Of a stretch of 7,939 nucleotides of DNA, positions 2 to 7,084 are shown piece after piece. Position 1 is the stretch's first letter. Each line of letters begins with the position of its first letter. The stretch covers positions 143,225-151,163 of the forward strand of contig CAMYLR010000024.1 of NCBI GenBank assembly GCA_947259315.1. The letters are read 5' to 3'. The notes below the pieces were generated by a model. It was not told where the DNA came from and searched no databases. It was given only the letters and a program-made list of their open reading frames with translations. Source of the DNA: an uncultured Gemmatimonadales bacterium. GTDB taxonomy: Bacteria > Gemmatimonadota > Gemmatimonadetes > JACCXV01 > JAHWKZ01. The position numbers and the translations under genes are program-made.

Positions 2-748
2 ACAGACCGTCCCTACAGCTGGTCGCCCGACGGCTCAAAGATCGCGTTCTCAACCGACCGCGACGGAAACTTCGAGGTCTACGTCATGGACGCCGACGGC
101 TCGAACCCGATGAACCTCACCAATAATGCGGCTTTTGACGGTGAGCCGAGTTGGTCGCCTTTTGCTTTGGATAGCGATGGCGACGGTCTTTCGGACGACG
201 ACGAGATCGCGATAGGTACCGATCCGTTCGATCCCGACACCGACGATGATGGCCTTACTGACGGCGAAGAAGTCGCTCTCGGAACCGACCCGCTCGATCC
301 GGACAGCGATGGCGATGGCCTCACTGACGGGGAAGAGGTCGCTCTCGGGACGGACCCGCTCGATCCCGACACCGACGATGACGGGCTGGACGACGGCGAA
401 GAAGTTGACCTCGGCACCGACCCGCTCGATCCCGACAGCGACGACGACGGGATCGTCGACGGATCGGACCCCGACGTGCTATCCGAAGCGCTCGACTCGA
501 TCCCGGACTCTGCTTTCAAGAGCGGCGACGGTGGTCACCGCAATGCGATGCAGAGCATCCTGGCCGACATCGAGCAGGCGATCGCCGACGGCGACACGGC
601 CGAGGCGATCCGCAAGCTTCAAAACCTGCGACGTAGGGTAGACGGCTGCGGCCCGACAGCCGAAAGAAATGACTGGATCCTCGACTGTCCGAGCCAGCTC
701 ATGGTACGGGATCTGATCGATACGATGATTACCGGCCTGGGCGGTTGA
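2..748 (+). CDS. Secreted TolB-like propeller / thrombospondin type 3 repeat protein, 3' part
   Basis: The reading frame is open from the left edge, so the 5' end is missing; 248 residues are visible. Residues 1-55 hold PD40/TolB-type beta-propeller blades ([12 protein letters not shown], then [17 protein letters not shown], then EPSWSPF). The ATG at 86 lies inside a blade and is not the start. Residues 57-158 are thrombospondin type 3-like calcium repeats (DxDxDG.xDGEE...GTDPLDPD). Residues 159-248 form a probably helical tail with two cysteines (VDGCG, ILDC) ending in [14 protein letters not shown]; similar tails occur at the end of secreted proteins (FIMAH-like), but I cannot assign it firmly. 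In known families TSP3 repeats bind Ca2+ and stiffen extracellular proteins, and PD40 propellers mediate protein contacts. Export is inferred, because the signal peptide lies outside the window. A rho-independent terminator follows 64 bp after the stop. Its promoter and any riboswitch are off the window. Confidence 0.88.
170..475 (+). repeat. 54-bp coding tandem repeats (TSP3 calcium loops)
   Basis: Four to five units of 18 codons with pattern [22 protein letters not shown]. They are conserved at DNA level as well as protein level (for example gacccgctcgatcc recurs with period 54), which suggests recent unit duplication or homogenisation. Alternating DTDDDG and DSDGDG cores give the Asp ladder expected for Ca2+ binding. 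Confidence 0.85.
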
Positions 749-865: not shown

Positions 866-1038
866 GTGCTAGTAAGAGTGCTAGTTCAGTTCCGTCTTTT
901 TGCCGTATCAGGGTGCGAAGCGCTCCGCAAATAGGCGGAAAACTCCGCGGACTTACGGCTGATTGCCGAAAAAGAGCTGTTTAGCCCCTGCTTGACATGC
1001 AGGAGGTCACTGGTTCGAATCCAGTGCCGCCCACCATG
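866..1038 (+). repeat. 173-bp cassette-end block, copy 1 (ends in tRNA-Val 3' half)
   Basis: Aligns without any indel to 2745-2917, with about 18 mismatches by hand count (about 90% identity). Parts in order: two direct TGCTAGT heptamers 12 bp apart (867-873, 879-885); a hairpin-capable inverted repeat TCCGC-AAATAG-GCGGA; a TCCGCGGA palindrome; a more diverged stretch (961-986); then the 3' half of a tRNA. Conservation is highest in the tRNA part (one mismatch in about 52 bp). This fits an attachment site: an element-derived arm joined to a displaced tRNA 3' end. No integrase gene is adjacent. Confidence 0.85.
987..1036 (+). pseudogene. tRNA-Val(GAC) 3' half, copy 1
   Basis: Contains an intact anticodon arm (CCTGC, loop TTGACAT with anticodon GAC at 994-996, GCAGG), variable loop, T arm (ACTGG TTCGAAT CCAGT), the 3' acceptor strand GCCGCCC, discriminator A and encoded CCA. 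The 5' acceptor strand (GGGCGGY expected) and D arm are absent: the 26 bases upstream do not resemble a tRNA. It therefore cannot make a functional tRNA and looks like the fragment left when an element integrates at the anticodon loop or 3' end of a tRNA gene. Confidence 0.88.
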
Positions 1039-1117
1039 CACAGCAACAAACAAAACGCTTCCTGCCTATACACGTTCTTGTGTAAGTTCTAAAACTTTGG
1101 TTGTACCGTGTCTGTTT

Positions 1118-1207
1118 CAGATCAGTTACACCGCGCGTAAGAGTCTCGCCTACGCGACGACGGGTTTTCCCCCACAGACAGCCACGTCTTGGTCGCACTA
1201 CAGTTGA
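1118..1207 (+). repeat. Conserved pre-riboswitch leader, copy A
   Basis: Homologous to 2927-3023 and 6805-6916. The riboswitch-proximal 52 bp (1171-1222) match 6880-6931 with three mismatches. Copy A lacks the roughly 20-bp segment around ACAAACAAACGAGTACAC seen in the other two. A weak sigma70-like pair (CAGACA 1175-1180, 18-bp spacer, TACAGT 1199-1204) is shared with copy C and would start transcription next to riboswitch helix P1; this promoter call is tentative. The bases 1039-1117, between the tRNA remnant and this leader, show nothing I can name. Confidence 0.6.
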
Positions 1208-1326
1208 GGTAATAACCCCGACAAGGGCAAACCCGGCGAAAGCCGGAGACGCAAAGCCACGGGTCCTCGCTCCCTCCGCGACGCCGTACCGACGCCACGA
1301 AGGTTTCAAGACCGCCGAGCTACCGA
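1206..1326 (+). promoter_or_regulatory. c-di-GMP-I (GEMM-I) riboswitch, copy A
   Basis: Carries the two hallmark GEMM-I strings in order: AGGGCAAACC (1224-1233) and GACGCAAAGCCACGGG (1248-1263). Between them is a P2 hairpin CCGGC-GAAA-GCCGG (1233-1246) with the conserved GNRA tetraloop that docks into P3. The 3' part CCGCCGAGCTACCG (1312-1325) matches the closing segment of the class, and its TACC (1321-1324) can pair with GGTA (1208-1211) to form P1. P3 seems longer than usual, making the domain about 120 nt. It lies 62 nt upstream of the lipoprotein ATG, in the same orientation, so c-di-GMP control of that gene is expected. GGTA recurs at 1362-1365 just before the Shine-Dalgarno and could compete for the P1 3' strand, which hints at the switching mechanism. 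Confidence 0.86.
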
Positions 1327-1387
1327 AGGCACCGTCTCAGACCTCACCTCGAAAGAAAGCAGGTAACCCCCCACCAAGGAGCAGCCA

Positions 1388-2659
1388 ATGCGACACCTCC
1401 TTTTGTCTCCCTTTGTTGCCGCACTGTTCGTGCTCGGCTGCAATGAAACGCCGACGCAGCCGATCGATACTGACCTTCCGCGCGCGGTGTCGCCGAGTGC
1501 TCTAGGCAGCTTCACAACGTCGGCCGATTTCGATGGCGCGAGTGATCCCTTCTTCGTCCGAACGACCCCCTTTTCGTTTCATCCGACGATAGGGCCTGAT
1601 CCTATAGTGGCCGGTCCCGATGGGTTTTCTGATGGGCGGTACCTGCGCCTCTTCAACTTTTCATTTCTCCACGCGGTCAACGTTGGGTTCGACGAGGCCA
1701 CCGCGGACCCGGTCATCGCAGCAACGGTCGAATTCGATTTTCGGCTGACGTGCAGAGGCAATCGCACCGGGTTCGGCGGCGGCGGCTGTGGCGACGGCTT
1801 TCAGATGTCGCTCCTGCCGACCTCAGACATGGGTCCGACGGGACCGATTCCCGCCGTATTAACCGAACGGCAGGTGCTGGACGACGACCCACCCCATGAA
1901 GGGATTATCCCTCTGACCAGTGGCCTCGTCATCTTGACGTTCAATACGTTCAACAACGGCTCTGGGGAGACCAACAACAACGTCGAGATACAAACGCGGG
2001 GCAGTGGTCCTCCACAGAAATTCCCCCTCGATCCGATGGTCTTCGACATCGCGACCGGCCTGGGCCAGGCCCGGGGCGAGTTCCAGCACGCGCGCCTCGA
2101 TCTGCAACTGACACCGCCCCGGTCGGTGACGCTTGTTCTCACCGACGCACTTGGCGCGAGCATCACGCCGTTCTCCATACCGCTCGATGCCGGTGCGCAG
2201 CCATACGAGATGCGGCTGGCATTCGGCGGTCGAAACGGACAGGCAAGCAATGGAATCGATCTCGACAACATCGTCGCCACGTTCATCACCGATGTTCTCA
2301 TCGAGGTCGATGTCGACATCAAACCGGGCAGCGATCCGAACTCGATAAACCCCAAGAGCATGGGTGTCGTGCCGGTGGCGATCCTCGGGGGCGATGTGTT
2401 TGACGTGACCGATGTGGATGTGACGACGCTCGCGTTTGGGCCAGCTGGCGCCGCGCCTAGCCATGACCTGTCGAATCCGGCCACCTATGCGGACCATCTT
2501 CAGGACGTGAACAGTGATGGCTTCACGGACTTGGTCTCCCACTACCGTCAGAAGGAAACCGGGCTGGCGGTCGGCGATACCGAGGCGTGCATCACAGGGG
2601 AGAGTTTTGGCGGTGCTCCGATCGAGGGTTGTGACGCCGTCAGCGTGCTAGACAAGTAA
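1388..2659 (+). CDS. Lipoprotein with lectin-like middle and calcium-loop C-terminal domain
   Basis: 423 residues. The start is supported by AAGGAG (1376-1381) six bases upstream and by a lipoprotein signal peptide with lipobox VLGC, giving lipidated Cys18. Residues about 40-300 look like an all-beta, concanavalin A/lectin-like sandwich (VEFDFRL at 114-120, GDGFQMSLLP at 135-144, TLVLTDALG, MRLAFGGRNG, then DLDNIVATF near 291-299); this fold call is inference. Residues 307-420 match a recurring secreted C-terminal domain: VDIKPGSDPNSINP, VVPVAILG, DVNSDGFTDLVSHY (a Ca2+-loop-like DxNxDG), GDTEACITG and IEGCD. The paired Cys401 and Cys415 may form a disulfide. No catalytic motif is visible, so a surface binding or adhesion role is the most that can be inferred. 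The gene is monocistronic, between the copy A riboswitch and its own terminator. Confidence 0.88.
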   Translation: MRHLLLSPFVAALFVLGCNETPTQPIDTDLPRAVSPSALGSFTTSADFDGASDPFFVRTTPFSFHPTIGPDPIVAGPDGFSDGRYLRLFNFSFLHAVNVGFDEATADPVIAATVEFDFRLTCRGNRTGFGGGGCGDGFQMSLLPTSDMGPTGPIPAVLTERQVLDDDPPHEGIIPLTSGLVILTFNTFNNGSGETNNNVEIQTRGSGPPQKFPLDPMVFDIATGLGQARGEFQHARLDLQLTPPRSVTLVLTDALGASITPFSIPLDAGAQPYEMRLAFGGRNGQASNGIDLDNIVATFITDVLIEVDVDIKPGSDPNSINPKSMGVVPVAILGGDVFDVTDVDVTTLAFGPAGAAPSHDLSNPATYADHLQDVNSDGFTDLVSHYRQKETGLAVGDTEACITGESFGGAPIEGCDAVSVLDK

Positions 2660-2689
2660 CACGTCGCCACGGTTCGGAGTGAAGATCAC

Positions 2690-2719
2690 GGGGCGGTCCA
2701 TCAGGGCCGCCCCTGTTTT
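2690..2719 (+). terminator. Rho-independent terminator of the lipoprotein gene
   Basis: A stem GGGGCGG (2690-2696) / CCGCCCC (2707-2713) is followed by TGTTTT, 31 bp after the stop. The stem and loop edge are nearly the same as the terminator at 813-842, although the genes are unrelated. Confidence 0.78.
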
Positions 2720-2744
2720 GTGCCGTGGTGTTGCCCTCAGAGGT

Positions 2745-2917
2745 GCGCTAGTAAGTGTGCTAGTTCAGTTCCGTCATTTTGCCATACTAGGGTGCGAAGC
2801 GGTCCGCAAATAGGCGGAAAACTCCACGGATTTACGGCATAATGACGAAAAAGCGCGGTTTAACGCCTGCTTGACACGCAGGAGGTCACTGGTTCGAATC
2901 CAGTGCCGCCCACCATG
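2745..2917 (+). repeat. 173-bp cassette-end block, copy 2 (ends in tRNA-Val 3' half)
   Basis: Second copy of 866-1038 at an exact offset of 1879 bp with no indels. It keeps the GCTAGT direct repeats, the TCCGC-AAATAG-GCGGA inverted repeat and the tRNA end; the TCCGCGGA palindrome is altered to TCCACGGA. Most differences cluster in the 20-25 bp just before the tRNA fragment. Together with copy 1 it delimits the lipoprotein cassette. Confidence 0.85.
2866..2915 (+). pseudogene. tRNA-Val(GAC) 3' half, copy 2
   Basis: Same 50 nt as copy 1 except for one anticodon-loop base: CCTGC TTGACAC GCAGG, anticodon GAC at 2873-2875, T arm, GCCGCCC, A, CCA. No D arm or 5' acceptor strand lies upstream. It is a displaced tRNA end rather than a gene. 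Confidence 0.88.
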
Positions 2918-2926
2918 TAACCATTG

Positions 2927-3023
2927 TAGACCAACCGTACCGTGCGTGGGGTTATCACCTACAGCAGAGCAGCTTTTCCCACACAAACAAACGAGTACAC
3001 TCCCACAGACACTCGTGTTGAGG
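2927..3023 (+). repeat. Conserved pre-riboswitch leader, copy B
   Basis: Shares GTGGGGTTATCACCTAC, ACAAACAAACGAGTACAC and CCCACAGACA with copy C (6805-6916). It diverges near its end (cactcgtgttgaggt in place of the TACAGT-containing stretch), so the tentative promoter element of copies A and C is not preserved. An inverted repeat GTGGG/CCCAC is kept between copies B and C. Confidence 0.55.
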
Positions 3024-3090
3024 TCGGAGTAGGCTTGAAGTAACAACCCCGACAAAGACAAACCCCCGAAAGACGGGGACCTCTGGGCCT
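3019..3090 (+). promoter_or_regulatory. Truncated, probably dead c-di-GMP-I riboswitch, copy B
   Basis: Aligns with the 5' half of the other two copies (TAACAACCCCGACAA, then CAAACCC, GAAAG, ACGGGGAC) but has lost what defines the class. AGGGCAAACC has become AAGACAAACC, GACGCAAAGC has become GACCTCTGGG, and P3 and the P1 3' strand are missing because the sequence joins directly to the ribosome binding site of the next gene. A 17-bp insertion also splits GAGGT from AACAACC. Ligand binding is not expected. The gene below it may have escaped c-di-GMP control. Confidence 0.7.
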
Positions 3091-3108
3091 TGTTGCTGGA
3101 GTAGACCT

Positions 3109-3960
3109 ATGAAACCCCACAAAGAGCCGTATGACGCGCGGTGTTCGATTCCCGGTTCAACAAGATGGCTGGGTAGGCGTGGCATTCTTGGCAGTACTAC
3201 GATCGTGGCGCTGCTCATCCTGAATGCAGTCTCCCTCCCTCGACCGACGCTAGCACAAGAACCTGAGAACGAACGCTCGATAGTGAGCATGTTCCTTCAG
3301 ATAAAGCCTGTCCCCGATCAGGGAGGTGGCCTGCGGCTGGCGAACGTGATCCAAGACGATGTCCCAGAAGCACTGGGCGGTCTCATCTTGATGAAACCGT
3401 CGGCTAATGATCCAGATCTGGTCGCCGAGTATAGGCTCACCGTAATCCGCCACGGAAGTTGCTCCGTAGAAGCAAGCAAGCAGTTGCAGGATGACATCAC
3501 GCTCGCGTTGCGCGAGGCCGAGGTCGAAGGGGTTAGCCTCGCCCCGAGAGACTGTGTTGAGATCTCTACAGCGGAACAGGCTAGTGCCGACAAAGACGTC
3601 GATGAGTGGCTAACCCATCACTGGCGCCAGGAGGAGATCAGTCCTGAAGAGGAACCCATCGTGGTTGTTAGCACCGTGGCGACTTCGGGGGACCTGGTGC
3701 GACTTGCCGCCGCTGCCACCAATCCCGACGATGTGCACAGTGCACAAATCACGCACAAGGGTACGAGCGTTTCGCTTCAGTTGTTTATGGTCGGTTCCTG
3801 CAGTACCCATGTCGTGGAGGGAGTGCTGAGACAGATAAGGCGGGTCGCGCGGTGGATGGGTGTGGATGTCAGCTTCCTTGGGCCCGAGTGTCTGAAGGCC
3901 CTTGTTGAGATGGGACAGGACGAGGTGCGTCGATACGATCCCGACGAAATGCCCAAATAA
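3109..3960 (+). CDS. Secreted protein with two Cys-bounded repeat domains, function unknown
   Basis: 283 residues, not recognised as a named family. The start has GGAG (3098-3101) seven bases upstream. A long n-region with several Arg precedes a hydrophobic stretch (about 26-43) and a likely signal peptidase I site LA|Q (49/50). The mature protein has four cysteines in two matching pairs: GSC118...C149 and GSC231...C261. Each pair brackets a similar 30-residue beta-helix-beta-like segment after a hydrophobic strand (YRLTVIRHGSCS versus VSLQLFMVGSCS; GVSLAPRDC versus DVSFLGPEC). I read this as an internal duplication with one disulfide per copy. It is the first gene of a two-gene operon, 23 bp before the next start, and sits behind the truncated riboswitch. 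Periplasmic or extracellular location is inferred. Confidence 0.78.
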   Translation: MKPHKEPYDARCSIPGSTRWLGRRGILGSTTIVALLILNAVSLPRPTLAQEPENERSIVSMFLQIKPVPDQGGGLRLANVIQDDVPEALGGLILMKPSANDPDLVAEYRLTVIRHGSCSVEASKQLQDDITLALREAEVEGVSLAPRDCVEISTAEQASADKDVDEWLTHHWRQEEISPEEEPIVVVSTVATSGDLVRLAAAATNPDDVHSAQITHKGTSVSLQLFMVGSCSTHVVEGVLRQIRRVARWMGVDVSFLGPECLKALVEMGQDEVRRYDPDEMPK

Positions 3961-3983
3961 CGAGTAGCTGAGAGAGAAGAACC

Positions 3984-4928
3984 GTGTATCCTGGTCGTAT
4001 CGGAACGTTTGGGTTGGCCGTGGTCGTGCTCCTTCTGGTGAATCCGGTTGGGGCACATGCTCAGGTCCCGGCGACCGACCAGGGGTGGCTTGACGCTTAT
4101 CAAGCGGCGTTGCGCCAGCCTCCAGTTGCGGCCGCAAGTCTGGAGTACGTGATCGCGCAGATCCGTCGGAACCCGCCCGTCGCATTTGCTGAGGGCTACT
4201 GGGTAAGTCCCATCGACCTCTTTGGTCTGTTTGCGGATCCCGTCGTAAGAGCCACTCTGGACTCGACTTCGGGCGGGAGACCCACCGCACTGGCGTTTAC
4301 CCCGACCGCGCTTACTCAACCACTAGCATTACCCTATGTCGGCACGTTCACATGGATCGAAGAAAAAGACACACAGGTCACAAGTGTCTTTGTCGCTGCC
4401 GTACAGGATCCAGATAACGTCGTTATCGAGCGCCTACCTCCTCCGCACACCGATCCAGTGGATGAGCCGGAGTGTTATTTCTTTTGCGGTGACCCTGATG
4501 CCTGGGATTTTGATGGCGACGGGTCACCGAATACGACGGACCTGGACGACGACGGAGATGGCGTTCCAGATCAAGCGGACCACTATCCCTACTGGGCGGG
4601 GGGAAGCGATTGTGATTGCGACATCCAATACATCGGGCTCACCGACAAGTTCTCGGAAGGGATCAAGGAGGCGGTGCTAGCGGCTTGGGGTCTGATCGAG
4701 TCGGTAGGAACAGATGCCACAAGCGAAAAGCTGGGATCGATATCCGATGCGACTGGCGACATACGCTTCGTTTTCCCGGACCTGCCCGATGGCTGCCCGA
4801 ACGCGTGTGACCCAAGCGTTCGTTACGTGAGCACCGATCCGAACGATTGCGCCCGCCTTCGGTTTCGATGCGCGGACGACGAAGAGCCCTTCTCGAACGA
4901 ATGCGGCTGCGGCTGTCAGCGTCGCTAG
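3984..4928 (+). CDS. Secreted Cys-rich protein with a calcium-binding Asp-repeat
   Basis: 314 residues from a GTG start that directly precedes the signal peptide; the upstream AGAGAGAAGA is only a weak Shine-Dalgarno, which fits translational coupling to the gene 23 bp upstream. The signal peptide is MYPGR plus a hydrophobic core (about 10-24), with a likely cleavage AHA|Q at 26/27. Residues 172-200 carry a TSP3/EF-like Asp ladder (DFDGDGSPN, DLDDDGDGVPDQAD). Cysteines appear at 164, 168, 210, 212, 271, 275, 289, 296 and in the C-terminal CGCGC (307-311) after EEPFSNE; an 'F.xxCGCGC' ending recurs in secreted proteins of environmental bacteria. The first 140 mature residues are not recognised. 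No enzyme motif is visible. No terminator was found before the tRNA remnant at 4962, and the next gene is convergent. Confidence 0.82.
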   Translation: MYPGRIGTFGLAVVVLLLVNPVGAHAQVPATDQGWLDAYQAALRQPPVAAASLEYVIAQIRRNPPVAFAEGYWVSPIDLFGLFADPVVRATLDSTSGGRPTALAFTPTALTQPLALPYVGTFTWIEEKDTQVTSVFVAAVQDPDNVVIERLPPPHTDPVDEPECYFFCGDPDAWDFDGDGSPNTTDLDDDGDGVPDQADHYPYWAGGSDCDCDIQYIGLTDKFSEGIKEAVLAAWGLIESVGTDATSEKLGSISDATGDIRFVFPDLPDGCPNACDPSVRYVSTDPNDCARLRFRCADDEEPFSNECGCGCQRR

Positions 4929-4961
4929 CAAGTTCGCGATCAAACCGAGACTGATCAGGAA

Positions 4962-4991
4962 CACTGGTTCGAATCCCAGTGCCTCCCACCA
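4962..4991 (+). pseudogene. tRNA 3' remnant, copy 3 (T arm and acceptor end)
   Basis: A T-arm-like hairpin CACTGG-TTCGAATC-CCAGTG is followed by CCTCCC-A-CCA. It differs from copies 1 and 2 by an extra C after TTCGAAT and by CCTCCC for CCGCCC. The anticodon arm is gone and the preceding sequence does not match the 173-bp block. It marks the end of the two-gene cassette, 33 bp after its last stop codon. Confidence 0.7.
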
Positions 4992-5003
4992 TGTAGCTAT
5001 TCC
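4985..5003 (+). repeat. Direct repeat flanking the K+ channel unit, left copy
   Basis: CCCACCATGTAGCTATTCC matches 6787-6805 at 18 of 19 positions. The pair encloses the channel gene at a spacing of 1802 bp. The stop codon and last Glu codon of the channel (minus strand) lie within this copy. Confidence 0.75.
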
Positions 5004-6700
5004 TCGAACTCCTCCGCGAAGCGCTTTCGCTGCTCGATCGTGCCGATCGCGATGAGAACGTCGCCCTCCTTGAACTCTGTCGCTGGGTCCGGATTCGTCA
5101 GCGTCTCACCAGCCCTTTCGATAGCCAGGACGTTGAGACCCGTGCGCGACCCGATTTCACTCGCCACGAGCGTCCCTCCGGACAAACTCGGTGGAACCGG
5201 AATCTTATACAGGTCGGCACTCTCACCTACGACGACCAGTCCTCGACCATCCAACAATGCGAAGATCGTCTGTGTGCCCAAAGTGGCATAGCTGAGTGCA
5301 AAGTCTGCACCGGCCCGGCTCACCGCCTCCACACTTCGGTCTTCGGTGATGCGGCTCACGATCCTGACGTCGGGGTTGGTGCGCCGGCAGTAAACAGCGA
5401 GGTAGATGTTCGTCGCATCTTCGTTGGTCGTGATCACAACGCTCGGAGCCGACTCGATCCCCGCCTCGGCCAGGATGGTCTTGTCTGCCGCATCGCCGAT
5501 AACCACTCGATCACACAGCTCCAGTAGCCGCGGCTCGAGACTGTCATCGCGCTCGACGACGTAGACGGGGATTTCGCGCGCCTTGAGTGAACGAGCCGCG
5601 GCTCGTCCGACGCGGCCGCCGCCGATGACAACTACGGGATTGAAGTTGGCCTGATGGATGAGAAGCAGACTCTCGAGATCGGTAAGCTGATCTTCGGTGC
5701 CGACAACCACGGGGATGCAGTAGTCGGTGAGAACGGTGTCCGCTTGCGCTGGTTCGAGCCGACCGCGTCTCCAGATACCGACGATGTTCAGCCCGGTCAC
5801 CTCACGCAGTCGCGTGCTGCGTATCGTTCTGCCGGCAAGGGGCGTCCCGTGCACCGTGAATTCGGCGATGCGCCGATCGCGGAACGATCCAACAACATGG
5901 ACTCGCGTTGACCCGGCAGCTACCCGTGCGGCCAGGTGTTCACCCAGCTGGCGCTTGAGATCGAGAACGTGGTTGCAGCCGCTCAACTCGAGGATGTGAA
6001 CCGCGTCGGGGCCCTCGGCGATCGCAACAATCGGGACCTCGGTCGAAACCTCACGGACGGTGATTGCGATATTGGTATCGATTCTGTCGTCGCGATTCGC
6101 GAGTATTAGTCGCGCTTGTTCCGCCCGTGCCGCCCGCACCGTTGCAGCGCTCATCAAGGAGCCGCTCATCACTGGGATGTCGTCCGAGTAGAGTTCCATA
6201 AGTCGTCCCGGGTCCGACTCGACCACGAACCACGGCACACCCCTGAGGTCGAGCTTTCGGCCTAGAGCGGCGGCAACGGCGTCGTAGCCGCACACGAGGA
6301 CGTGCCCACTTGTGCCTTCCGGCAGTTCGCGAGGGGCCCTTGTTCGGAGGCGAGCTTCGAGCCACGGAGCGTAGAAGAGGCTAATGAATGCGAACGGTAG
6401 TACGATCAGCAGCAGCATGATTCCCGAGACGAGAACGACTACACTGAAGAGGCGCCCGATATCGCTGTGAAAAGTGATGTCGCCAAAGCCGAGCGTGCTC
6501 ATCACGGTGAGGGTCCAGTAGAACCCAGTCAGCCACGAGTGACGTTCGCCCTCGATTGTCCACATGATCCAATGGAATCCGACCGTGTAGATCACGATCA
6601 CCACGGCAAGAAACGCCAGATACCTGAACAACCCTCGCAGGTTCTGCTGCATGCGGCGATCGCCGAGGAAGAAAGCCATCTGTGCCGGCAAGAACTTCAT
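4997..6700 (-). CDS. Potassium channel subunit with two tandem RCK (TrkA-N/TrkA-C) domains
   Basis: 567 residues starting at Met of MKFLPAQM, chosen because GGAG lies seven bases upstream; an in-frame ATG at 6772 would add 24 residues, lacks a clear ribosome site and lies almost against the tRNA remnant. TM1 is about 27-47, the pore helix 58-68, the K+ selectivity filter TLGFGD 69-74, and TM2 about 84-110. RCK1 is at about 133-345 with a degraded dinucleotide loop (VCGYDAVAAAL instead of GxGxxG). RCK2 is at about 354-555 with a canonical loop VIGGGRVG (358-365) and the ribose-binding acid Glu383. Two RCKs on one 2-TM subunit and this length resemble GsuK-type channels, which assemble as tetramers in the inner membrane with cytosolic gating rings responding to nucleotides or ions. 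It is the only minus-strand gene, has no riboswitch, and is convergent with the operon at 3109-4928. Confidence 0.93.
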   Translation of the reverse strand: MKFLPAQMAFFLGDRRMQQNLRGLFRYLAFLAVVIVIYTVGFHWIMWTIEGERHSWLTGFYWTLTVMSTLGFGDITFHSDIGRLFSVVVLVSGIMLLLIVLPFAFISLFYAPWLEARLRTRAPRELPEGTSGHVLVCGYDAVAAALGRKLDLRGVPWFVVESDPGRLMELYSDDIPVMSGSLMSAATVRAARAEQARLILANRDDRIDTNIAITVREVSTEVPIVAIAEGPDAVHILELSGCNHVLDLKRQLGEHLAARVAAGSTRVHVVGSFRDRRIAEFTVHGTPLAGRTIRSTRLREVTGLNIVGIWRRGRLEPAQADTVLTDYCIPVVVGTEDQLTDLESLLLIHQANFNPVVVIGGGRVGRAAARSLKAREIPVYVVERDDSLEPRLLELCDRVVIGDAADKTILAEAGIESAPSVVITTNEDATNIYLAVYCRRTNPDVRIVSRITEDRSVEAVSRAGADFALSYATLGTQTIFALLDGRGLVVVGESADLYKIPVPPSLSGGTLVASEIGSRTGLNVLAIERAGETLTNPDPATEFKEGDVLIAIGTIEQRKRFAEEFEE

Positions 6701-6780
6701 GCAGGGACTCCGACCGCTCCGAACCAAGTATCGATTGGATCGTCCATTACAGGGCTCAACGTTAGCGGCCACAGCGCTCG

Positions 6781-6805
6781 GTGTCGCCCACCATATAGCT
6801 ATTCC
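6781..6805 (+). repeat. tRNA acceptor remnant, copy 4, with right direct repeat
   Basis: GTGTCGCCCACCA resembles the last 13 bases of the tRNA-Val fragments (GTGCCGCCCACCA). It runs into TATAGCTATTCC, so 6787-6805 forms the right copy of the 19-bp direct repeat at 4985-5003. No T arm is left. It marks the junction between the K+ channel unit and the last riboswitch cassette. Confidence 0.65.
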
Positions 6806-6916
6806 AGATCAACTGCACAGTTTGTGGGGTTATCACCTACATCACAACGGCATTCCCCACACAAACAAACGAGTACACCCCCACAGACAGCCACGTCTTA
6901 GCCGCACTACAGTTGA
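6805..6916 (+). repeat. Conserved pre-riboswitch leader, copy C
   Basis: Most complete copy of the leader. It contains TGTGGGG...CCCCACA (a potential 7-bp stem), ACAAACAAACGAGTACAC, CCCACAGACAGCCACGTCTT (6880-6899) and GCACTACAGTTGAGGTAAC. The same tentative CAGACA (6884-6889) - 18 bp - TACAGT (6908-6913) promoter pair as in copy A is present. Confidence 0.6.
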
Positions 6917-7038
6917 GGTAACAACCCCGACAAGGGCAAACCCGCCGAAAGACGGGGACGCAAAGCTACGGATCCTCTCTTCCTCCGTGGCGCCAAAGGC
7001 CCAGCGTCACGAAGGCCGGAAGACCGCCGAGCTGCCGG
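6915..7038 (+). promoter_or_regulatory. c-di-GMP-I (GEMM-I) riboswitch, copy C
   Basis: Contains AGGGCAAACC (6933-6942), a P2 hairpin capped by GAAA (6947-6950, one internal mismatch), GACGCAAAGC (6957-6966), a P3 with CTACGGA / TCCGTGG pairing (6966-6986), and the closing segment CCGCCGAGCTGCC (7024-7036). P1 forms between GGTA (6917-6920) and TGCC (7033-7036). Compared with copy A this replaces a U-A pair by U-G, so P1 is maintained. It precedes the secreted protein start by about 50 nt in the same orientation. The class binds cyclic di-GMP and commonly controls surface, motility and matrix genes. Confidence 0.88.
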
Positions 7039-7084
7039 CGGAGCATCGCACCACAAGCAACGCGATTTCACCATCCGCGGAGGA
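7035..7084 (+). promoter_or_regulatory. Putative expression platform hiding the Shine-Dalgarno
   Basis: CCGGCGGA (7035-7042) can pair with TCCGCGG (7074-7080) with one bulged G, closing over an inner ATCGC / GCGAT helix (7045-7049 / 7062-7066). The outer helix takes up the first two Gs of the Shine-Dalgarno GGAGGA (7079-7084). It also reuses C7035-C7036, which belong to the P1 3' strand of the riboswitch, so P1 and this hairpin compete. If so, ligand-stabilised P1 would expose the ribosome site (ON switch). This is hand-folded only. Confidence 0.5.

Follow-up and report, generated by a model that had tools for sequence, protein, structure and literature searches.

The last 7,939 nucleotides of contig CAMYLR010000024.1 (C24) of an uncultured Gemmatimonadales bacterium (assembly GCA_947259315.1; 2.4 Mb, 95.8% complete; genome G000 below), here called the window, whose right edge is also the end of the contig, belong to an array of small gene units separated by displaced 3' ends of tRNA-Val(GAC). 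We read this array as the product of serial integration of non-autonomous cassettes at the anticodon loop of the tRNA gene, an origin to which we assign a probability of roughly 0.8. It explains the presence of an intact tRNA gene, the displaced 3' ends on one and the same strand, the position of the unit boundaries, the swapped T-stems observed in a relative and the growth of the array toward the tRNA gene. Among known systems, the region is best read as integrase-less cassettes resembling cis-mobilizable elements (CIMEs) in an additive flexible genomic island (fGI). The array comprises at least six units of 0.75-2.2 kb, and no integrase gene is encoded in any of them; that each unit holds one or two genes had been proposed in a preliminary description of this DNA and is borne out.

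Displaced 3' ends of tRNA-Val(GAC)

The preliminary description reported four tRNA 3' fragments on the same strand, none with a 5' half, and expected an intact tRNA-Val to the left. Extension of the contig leftwards places an intact tRNA-Val(GAC) at C24:141215-141288, 2.0 kb left of the window; all four fragments align to its 3' end, none of them has a 5' half, and recomputation returns the spacings first stated, 1879, 2076 and 1802 bp. One more displaced end, F1, lies left of the window, 769 bp downstream of the intact tRNA gene, and is an exact 30/30-nt tRNA 3' end (T-arm end). The array therefore holds at least five displaced 3' ends on one strand (F1-F5), four of them inside the window:

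987-1036, + strand: F2, displaced tRNA-Val(GAC) 3' end, 50/50 nt against the intact gene, beginning at the anticodon stem
2865-2915, + strand: F3, displaced tRNA-Val(GAC) 3' end, 50/51 nt, beginning at the anticodon stem
4962-4991, + strand: F4, displaced tRNA-Val 3' end, 30 nt from the T-arm to the end, with one inserted base and one mismatch
6781-6793, + strand: F5, displaced tRNA-Val 3' end, 12/13 nt, directly followed by TAGCTATTCC, which is present after F4 too

ARAGORN called no tRNA within the window, and the Rfam tRNA model gave only weak matches there, at 975-1025 and 2853-2912. Matches of 12-13/13 to the tRNA suffix occur four times on the + strand, the best value in 200 dinucleotide shuffles (both strands) being 11/13; over the final 13 nt, shuffled windows never equalled even the scores of F4 or F5. 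The left-to-right loss of the fragments proposed earlier (50, 50, 30 and 13 nt) holds inside the window, where decay in general increases rightward, but not for the array as a whole: the leftmost fragment, F1, is an exact 30-nt T-arm end, and the gradient is thus not monotonic.

An intact, regenerated tRNA gene followed by displaced fragments in the same orientation is what a tRNA-targeted tyrosine-integrase element leaves behind. The anticodon stem-loop is the usual crossover point of tyrosine integrases, and F2, F3 and their relatives in other genomes begin at this stem-loop; F1 and F4 begin at the T-arm.

Each cassette would have carried, beside its attachment core, a tRNA 3' half from the anticodon loop onward. 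On integration the tRNA would have been made whole again by the incoming 3' half, with the old one shifted to the far side of the insert, where it may now be seen as F1-F5. Repeated events would have driven older units rightward, their ends eroding subsequently. Because the cassettes encode no integrase, integration is presumed to have been driven in trans or by a helper lost since, as with CIME-type elements; the cassettes may still be mobile at present.

Organization of the units

Unit 1, between the intact tRNA and F1, consists of one reverse-strand gene of 227 aa, with about 10 bp separating its stop from the tRNA end; in our own reading of the sequence, the product would be a HupE-like membrane protein. 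Unit 2 (F1 to F2) has its gene start upstream of the window, past F1 and a decayed riboswitch. The remaining features of the window, from open reading frames, Pfam, repeats and alignments, are as follows ('secreted' denotes our own reading of N-terminal signal-like sequences, made without a predictor):

2-748, + strand: unit 2 cargo, 3' part, predicted secreted PD40 beta-propeller/TSP3-repeat protein
815-842, + strand: terminator-like hairpin with T-run after the unit 2 gene, with a 28-nt match at 2690-2717 (repeat family D14)
865-986, + strand: unit 2 left arm, non-coding, before F2, with GTGCTAGT at 866-873 and 878-885 (12-bp period)
1037-1216, + strand: unit 3 (F2 to F3) right arm/leader, type A, 78% similar to the leader following F1
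1217-1328, + strand: unit 3 c-di-GMP-I-GGC aptamer, 63.9 bits
1388-2659, + strand: unit 3 cargo, 423-aa predicted secreted or lipoprotein-like protein, no family
2690-2717, + strand: terminator-like hairpin after the unit 3 gene (repeat match)
2744-2864, + strand: unit 3 left arm, with copies of the GTGCTAGT repeat at 2745-2752 and 2757-2764
2916-3108, + strand: unit 4 (F3 to F4) right arm/leader, type B, 78% identical to 6781-6943
3109-3960, + strand: unit 4 cargo, first gene, 283 aa, no family
3984-4928, + strand: unit 4 cargo, second gene, 314 aa, no family
4997-6772, - strand: unit 5 (F4 to F5) cargo, 591-aa ion channel with two TrkA-N/TrkA-C repeats
6794-6925, + strand: unit 6 (F5 to contig end) right arm/leader, type B
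6926-7040, + strand: unit 6 c-di-GMP-I-GGC aptamer, 68.5 bits
7088-7939, + strand: unit 6 cargo, predicted secreted protein, no family, cut by the contig end

The cargo genes differ from unit to unit, but a 120-nt left arm is common to units 2 and 3 (90% identity between 865-1038 and 2744-2917) and related leaders occur in units 2-4 and 6. The left arm with its GTGCTAGT repeats is a putative attP arm, in which the repeats may act as arm sites. Among 298 genomes sampled from the phylum only G000 has this arm, and neither the arm nor a tRNA tail plus ATG was found in viral contigs. Direct-repeat arm sites at the other fragments did not rise above shuffles, and the idea was dropped. The unit 5 gene, on the strand opposite to the other genes of the window, fills its unit, with the stop 6 bp past F4 and the annotated start 9 bp ahead of F5. 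Relatives of its ion-channel product in named genomes matched at only 48-56%.

The PD40/TSP3 protein of unit 2 contains four in-phase 66-bp (22-aa) TSP3-type repeats at window positions 169-498. A run of N (L010:9154-9224) lies inside this gene, and window position 1 follows directly after it.

A riboswitch leader in the forward units

All four forward-oriented units (2, 3, 4 and 6) open with a riboswitch module of the c-di-GMP-I-GGC type, named for cyclic di-GMP (c-di-GMP), or with a remnant of it. The aptamers of units 3 and 6 exceed the cut-off of 59 bits of the Rfam model RF03167; unit 2 retains a decayed copy of 27 bits, and in unit 4 a truncated remnant near 3046-3082 is recognizable by alignment, with no Rfam match there. 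The forward units would thus bring their own leader with a GGC riboswitch, so that c-di-GMP probably governs their secreted-protein genes from arrival onward.

The regular succession of tRNA end, leader and GGC riboswitch or remnant in four units could also be taken to mean that the fragments are functional RNA parts, such as processing signals or tRNA-like leaders of riboswitch mRNAs, and not scars. We give this view hardly any credence: no tRNA end was found upstream of the other GGC riboswitches of G000, units 1 and 5 have tRNA ends yet no riboswitch, and the fragments decay.

In total G000 has ten c-di-GMP-I-GGC matches, the further ones being located on contigs C4, C11, C29, C30 and C32 (L024-L028); on C32 two GGC riboswitches stand in tandem, about 0.86 kb apart. 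The same riboswitch was detected in 37 of 119 genomes sampled from the class (E <= 1e-8).

The same signature at other tRNA genes

Displaced tRNA ends recur at other tRNA genes and in other genomes. Within G000, tRNA-Val(TAC) is followed by displaced 3' ends at +157 (of Val-GAC type) and +1200. These delimit a second small array (L012:10050-11260, contig C11), in which a 157-bp non-coding unit, ending in the Val-GAC-type 3' end, precedes a methyltransferase-like unit of 1.0 kb that ends in one of Val-TAC type. Four genomes of the same family were compared, G001 from the same genus and G002 and G004 from one sister genus among them. G004 has displaced 3' ends at tRNA-Val(GAC) (+2596 and +5187) and at tRNA-Arg(CCG) (+1094). 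In a scan of 70 tRNA genes of G000 and G004, no tRNAs other than tRNA-Val and tRNA-Arg(CCG) had downstream copies, save for near-identical intact isoacceptor genes.

The tRNA-Val(TAC) gene of G025, a genome from a different family of the class, is accompanied by displaced fragments at +6707 and +7636; a resistance-nodulation-division (RND) efflux operon makes up the first unit and one gene the second, which measures 0.93 kb, and both lack an integrase. The T-stem of both fragments is unlike that of the present tRNA, as expected under serial integration, because each insertion would swap the tRNA 3' half. Full fragments start at, or a few nt from, the anticodon loop in F2 and F3, at G004 Val-GAC +5187 and Arg-CCG +1094, at G025 +6707 and +7636, and in G125. 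In three genomes of other families (G010, G037 and G302) the 5' halves are displaced instead, ending in or beside the anticodon loop. These tRNA-Val(TAC) 5' halves lie at L254 (about 14.9-16.1 kb), L250 (about 6.7-10.5 kb) and L251; the unit so bounded in G010 holds a FabH-like gene, and in G302 two 5' halves stand 2.67 kb apart with a gene for a tetratricopeptide repeat (TPR) protein between them. On contig C49 of G004 (L102) a tRNA-Val(TAC) is followed at +3384 and +3929 by two displaced 3' ends that match exactly; it was not counted, since C41 already has a tRNA-Val(TAC) and C49 may be a contaminant.

One site exists in a longer and a shorter form. From a bactofilin-like gene to tRNA-Val(GAC) the distance is 0.9 kb in G002 vs about 16.1 kb in G004, and the extra DNA of G004, about 15 kb, includes both displaced 3' ends. 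The difference fits a gain in G004. No displaced ends were seen in G002 (94% complete), in which the tRNA-Val(GAC) contig reaches only 2.2 kb downstream. G000 and G001 share 80% identity over 2.3 kb, stopping exactly at the tRNA 3' end, beyond which only 58 nt are present in G001. Neither the MOSC gene on the right flank of tRNA-Val(TAC) nor the bactofilin gene of G002 and G004 provided a usable orthologous flank for G000. The suggestion of the preliminary description that small integrase-less units integrate at tRNA genes is strengthened by the same signature at the tRNAs of relatives with different cargo, and by the extra DNA at the tRNA in the G002/G004 comparison.

Homologous recombination or segmental duplication, by which repeats of tRNA 3' end plus leader would have spread by copying, would account for leaders and left arms that are homologous between units (repeat families D2-D4). 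However, in different tRNAs the breakpoints repeatedly coincide with the anticodon loop, on the 3' as well as the 5' side, most scanned tRNAs are without any copies, and the displaced ends of G025 differ from the resident tRNA. Copying is therefore a very improbable source of the array.

Comparison with known systems

Islands of cassettes anchored at tRNA genes, or additive fGIs, are known, with cassettes from 330 bp and one coding sequence upward (PMC10872708, PMC7771536, PMC5217437). Small cassettes at tRNA genes, which had seemed exceptional, are consequently already on record (PMC10872708, PMC7771536). In Methylophilaceae fGI-2 the repeats consist of the last 20 nt of tRNA-Lys, and other additive islands are fGI1 of Ca. 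Actinomarinales and those of Alteromonas (PMC10872708, PMC7771536, PMC5217437). Our array shares with them serial inserts added beside one tRNA gene and delimited one by one by repeated tRNA ends, and a cargo that varies from insert to insert; it differs in its full fragments reaching the anticodon loop, in the genome-wide check for integrases and in the GGC riboswitch or remnant of four out of six units.

With CIMEs and their tandem accretion the array has in common att-flanked units in tandem that lack integration and transfer genes (PMC5704250). The units described here, however, measure only 0.75-2.2 kb, at least six stand in series, and no helper integrative and conjugative or integrative and mobilizable element (ICE or IME) was detected. 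CIMEs are thought to arise by deletion from larger elements (PMC5704250), and our units might likewise be a series of fossils, in which larger integrase-bearing islands were deleted to one or two genes between att scars, none being mobile now. Such a history would be a special case of the integration origin and competes only with the arrival of the cassettes as small units. Signs of decay, seen in the eroded ends F4 and F5 and in leaders and riboswitches that are truncated, speak for it, as does the lack of a dedicated integrase in G000. On the other hand, units 1 and 5 each hold one gene that takes up almost the whole interval between two tRNA ends (with the stop 6-10 bp from the tRNA end), units 2 and 3 keep both arms around different genes with no integrase remnant found, and deletion down to an intact cargo would have had to be repeated at several tRNAs. 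We consider the chance of a fossil series to be somewhat below even.

In Dehalococcoides, too, islands stand in tandem behind a single stable RNA gene, ssrA, on its downstream side; they are bounded by its 3' repeat, and 15 of them are without an integration module (PMC3146451). Those islands involve a serine recombinase and a tmRNA repeat of 20 bp, in contrast to the tRNA anticodon-loop sites and much smaller units of our array. Islands of the Islander type also show a regenerated tRNA with a displaced fragment, and anticodon-centred sites form one of their two main classes; their size peaks at 13.6 and 39.9 kb (PMC4383910). Islander, which serves as a reference catalogue for such islands, takes in only those with an integrase and a length of 2 kb or more, and so could not list the present array (PMC4383910). 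By the summary given in PMC10872708, tycheposons are tRNA-targeted cargo elements too, but of 4-200 kb and with a tyrosine recombinase.

What sets the array apart from known cases is its minimal unit size, the series of at least six units, the anticodon-loop boundaries together with the genome-wide absence of an integrase, and the repeated riboswitch leader. If such stacks of 0.75-2.2 kb cassettes are common, they would represent an overlooked route for adding single genes, which in our case mostly encode predicted secreted proteins and come with a second-messenger riboswitch of their own. They also make a question testable, namely whether a tRNA-specific integrase mobilizes minimal cassettes in trans.

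Recombinases

The preliminary description expected a recombinase to the left of the array; this was not upheld. G000 has just two Phage_integrase matches, one neighboured by hslV/hslU-like genes and the other by a queG-like gene and a metallo-beta-lactamase-fold gene; sequence and neighbours suggest that they are the housekeeping XerC and XerD, and no non-Xer integrase is present in the assembly.

Several observations weigh against the integration origin. No dedicated tRNA-facing integrase was found in G000 or in the four genomes of the same family (G001-G004), and nowhere did we encounter one that is dedicated to tRNA-Val(GAC). Because F1 and F4 start at the T-arm, they call for either a different crossover point or erosion. 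A loss in G002 is as possible as a gain in G004, no pair of strains differing by one exact cassette was found, and the array lacks its right end. The base composition of the units is just mildly low (57.5-60.5% G+C, and 64.8% in the partial last unit, for a genome mean of 61.8%, s.d. 2.0); a G+C anomaly was dropped as evidence for insertion after this test.

The array had also been likened to an integron. Like units 1 and 5 of the array, integron gene cassettes are compact, hold one gene each and stand in series, but here the boundaries are tRNA 3' ends, the gene orientation is mixed and no integron integrase was found, the two Phage_integrase matches being XerC/XerD-like (no IntI-specific model was run); membership among integrons is accordingly not sustained. 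A functional integron-like system, with XerC/XerD or another, undetected recombinase of the cell capturing and shuffling compact cassettes at tRNA 3' ends, could draw on the single orientation of the sites, the compact units and the presence of XerC-/XerD-like recombinases only. We regard it as improbable, given the mixed cargo orientation and the missing integron integrase, the statement that Xer proteins work at dif sites and not at tRNA genes (PMC4383910), and the dedicated tRNA-facing integrase family that exists in the class. A model driven by XerCD was dropped as the leading idea.

The dedicated integrase family, absent from the genus and family of G000, is common in other families of the class, in which it is represented by a separate kind of integrase, 390 aa long (PF00589, E about 1e-16); 45 of the 119 class genomes match at E <= 1e-30. 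The integrase gene runs toward a tRNA gene and ends beside it, the tRNAs concerned being Val(TAC), Ile, Arg, Pro or Ala; sometimes a tRNA gene is approached from both sides. One copy lies beside a primase/helicase gene, and the family was not found in viral contigs. The serial integration preferred here might, in a rather unlikely extension, amount to integron-like gene capture with tRNA anticodon-loop halves as sites: one-gene integrase-less cassettes, many with a riboswitch leader, would move among tRNAs and hosts by means of an integrase supplied in trans from the class's other elements.

Some genomes show a strong expansion of the class integrase, in which at least 16 copies were scored and up to 85 candidates appeared at first look; copies are located at L265:5219-6400 (-), L263:5179-6345 (-), L253:950-2128 (+) and in L270-L294. 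Some tRNAs are flanked by convergent integrases, and a CGTAAGTTCAA-like motif adjoins the tRNA.

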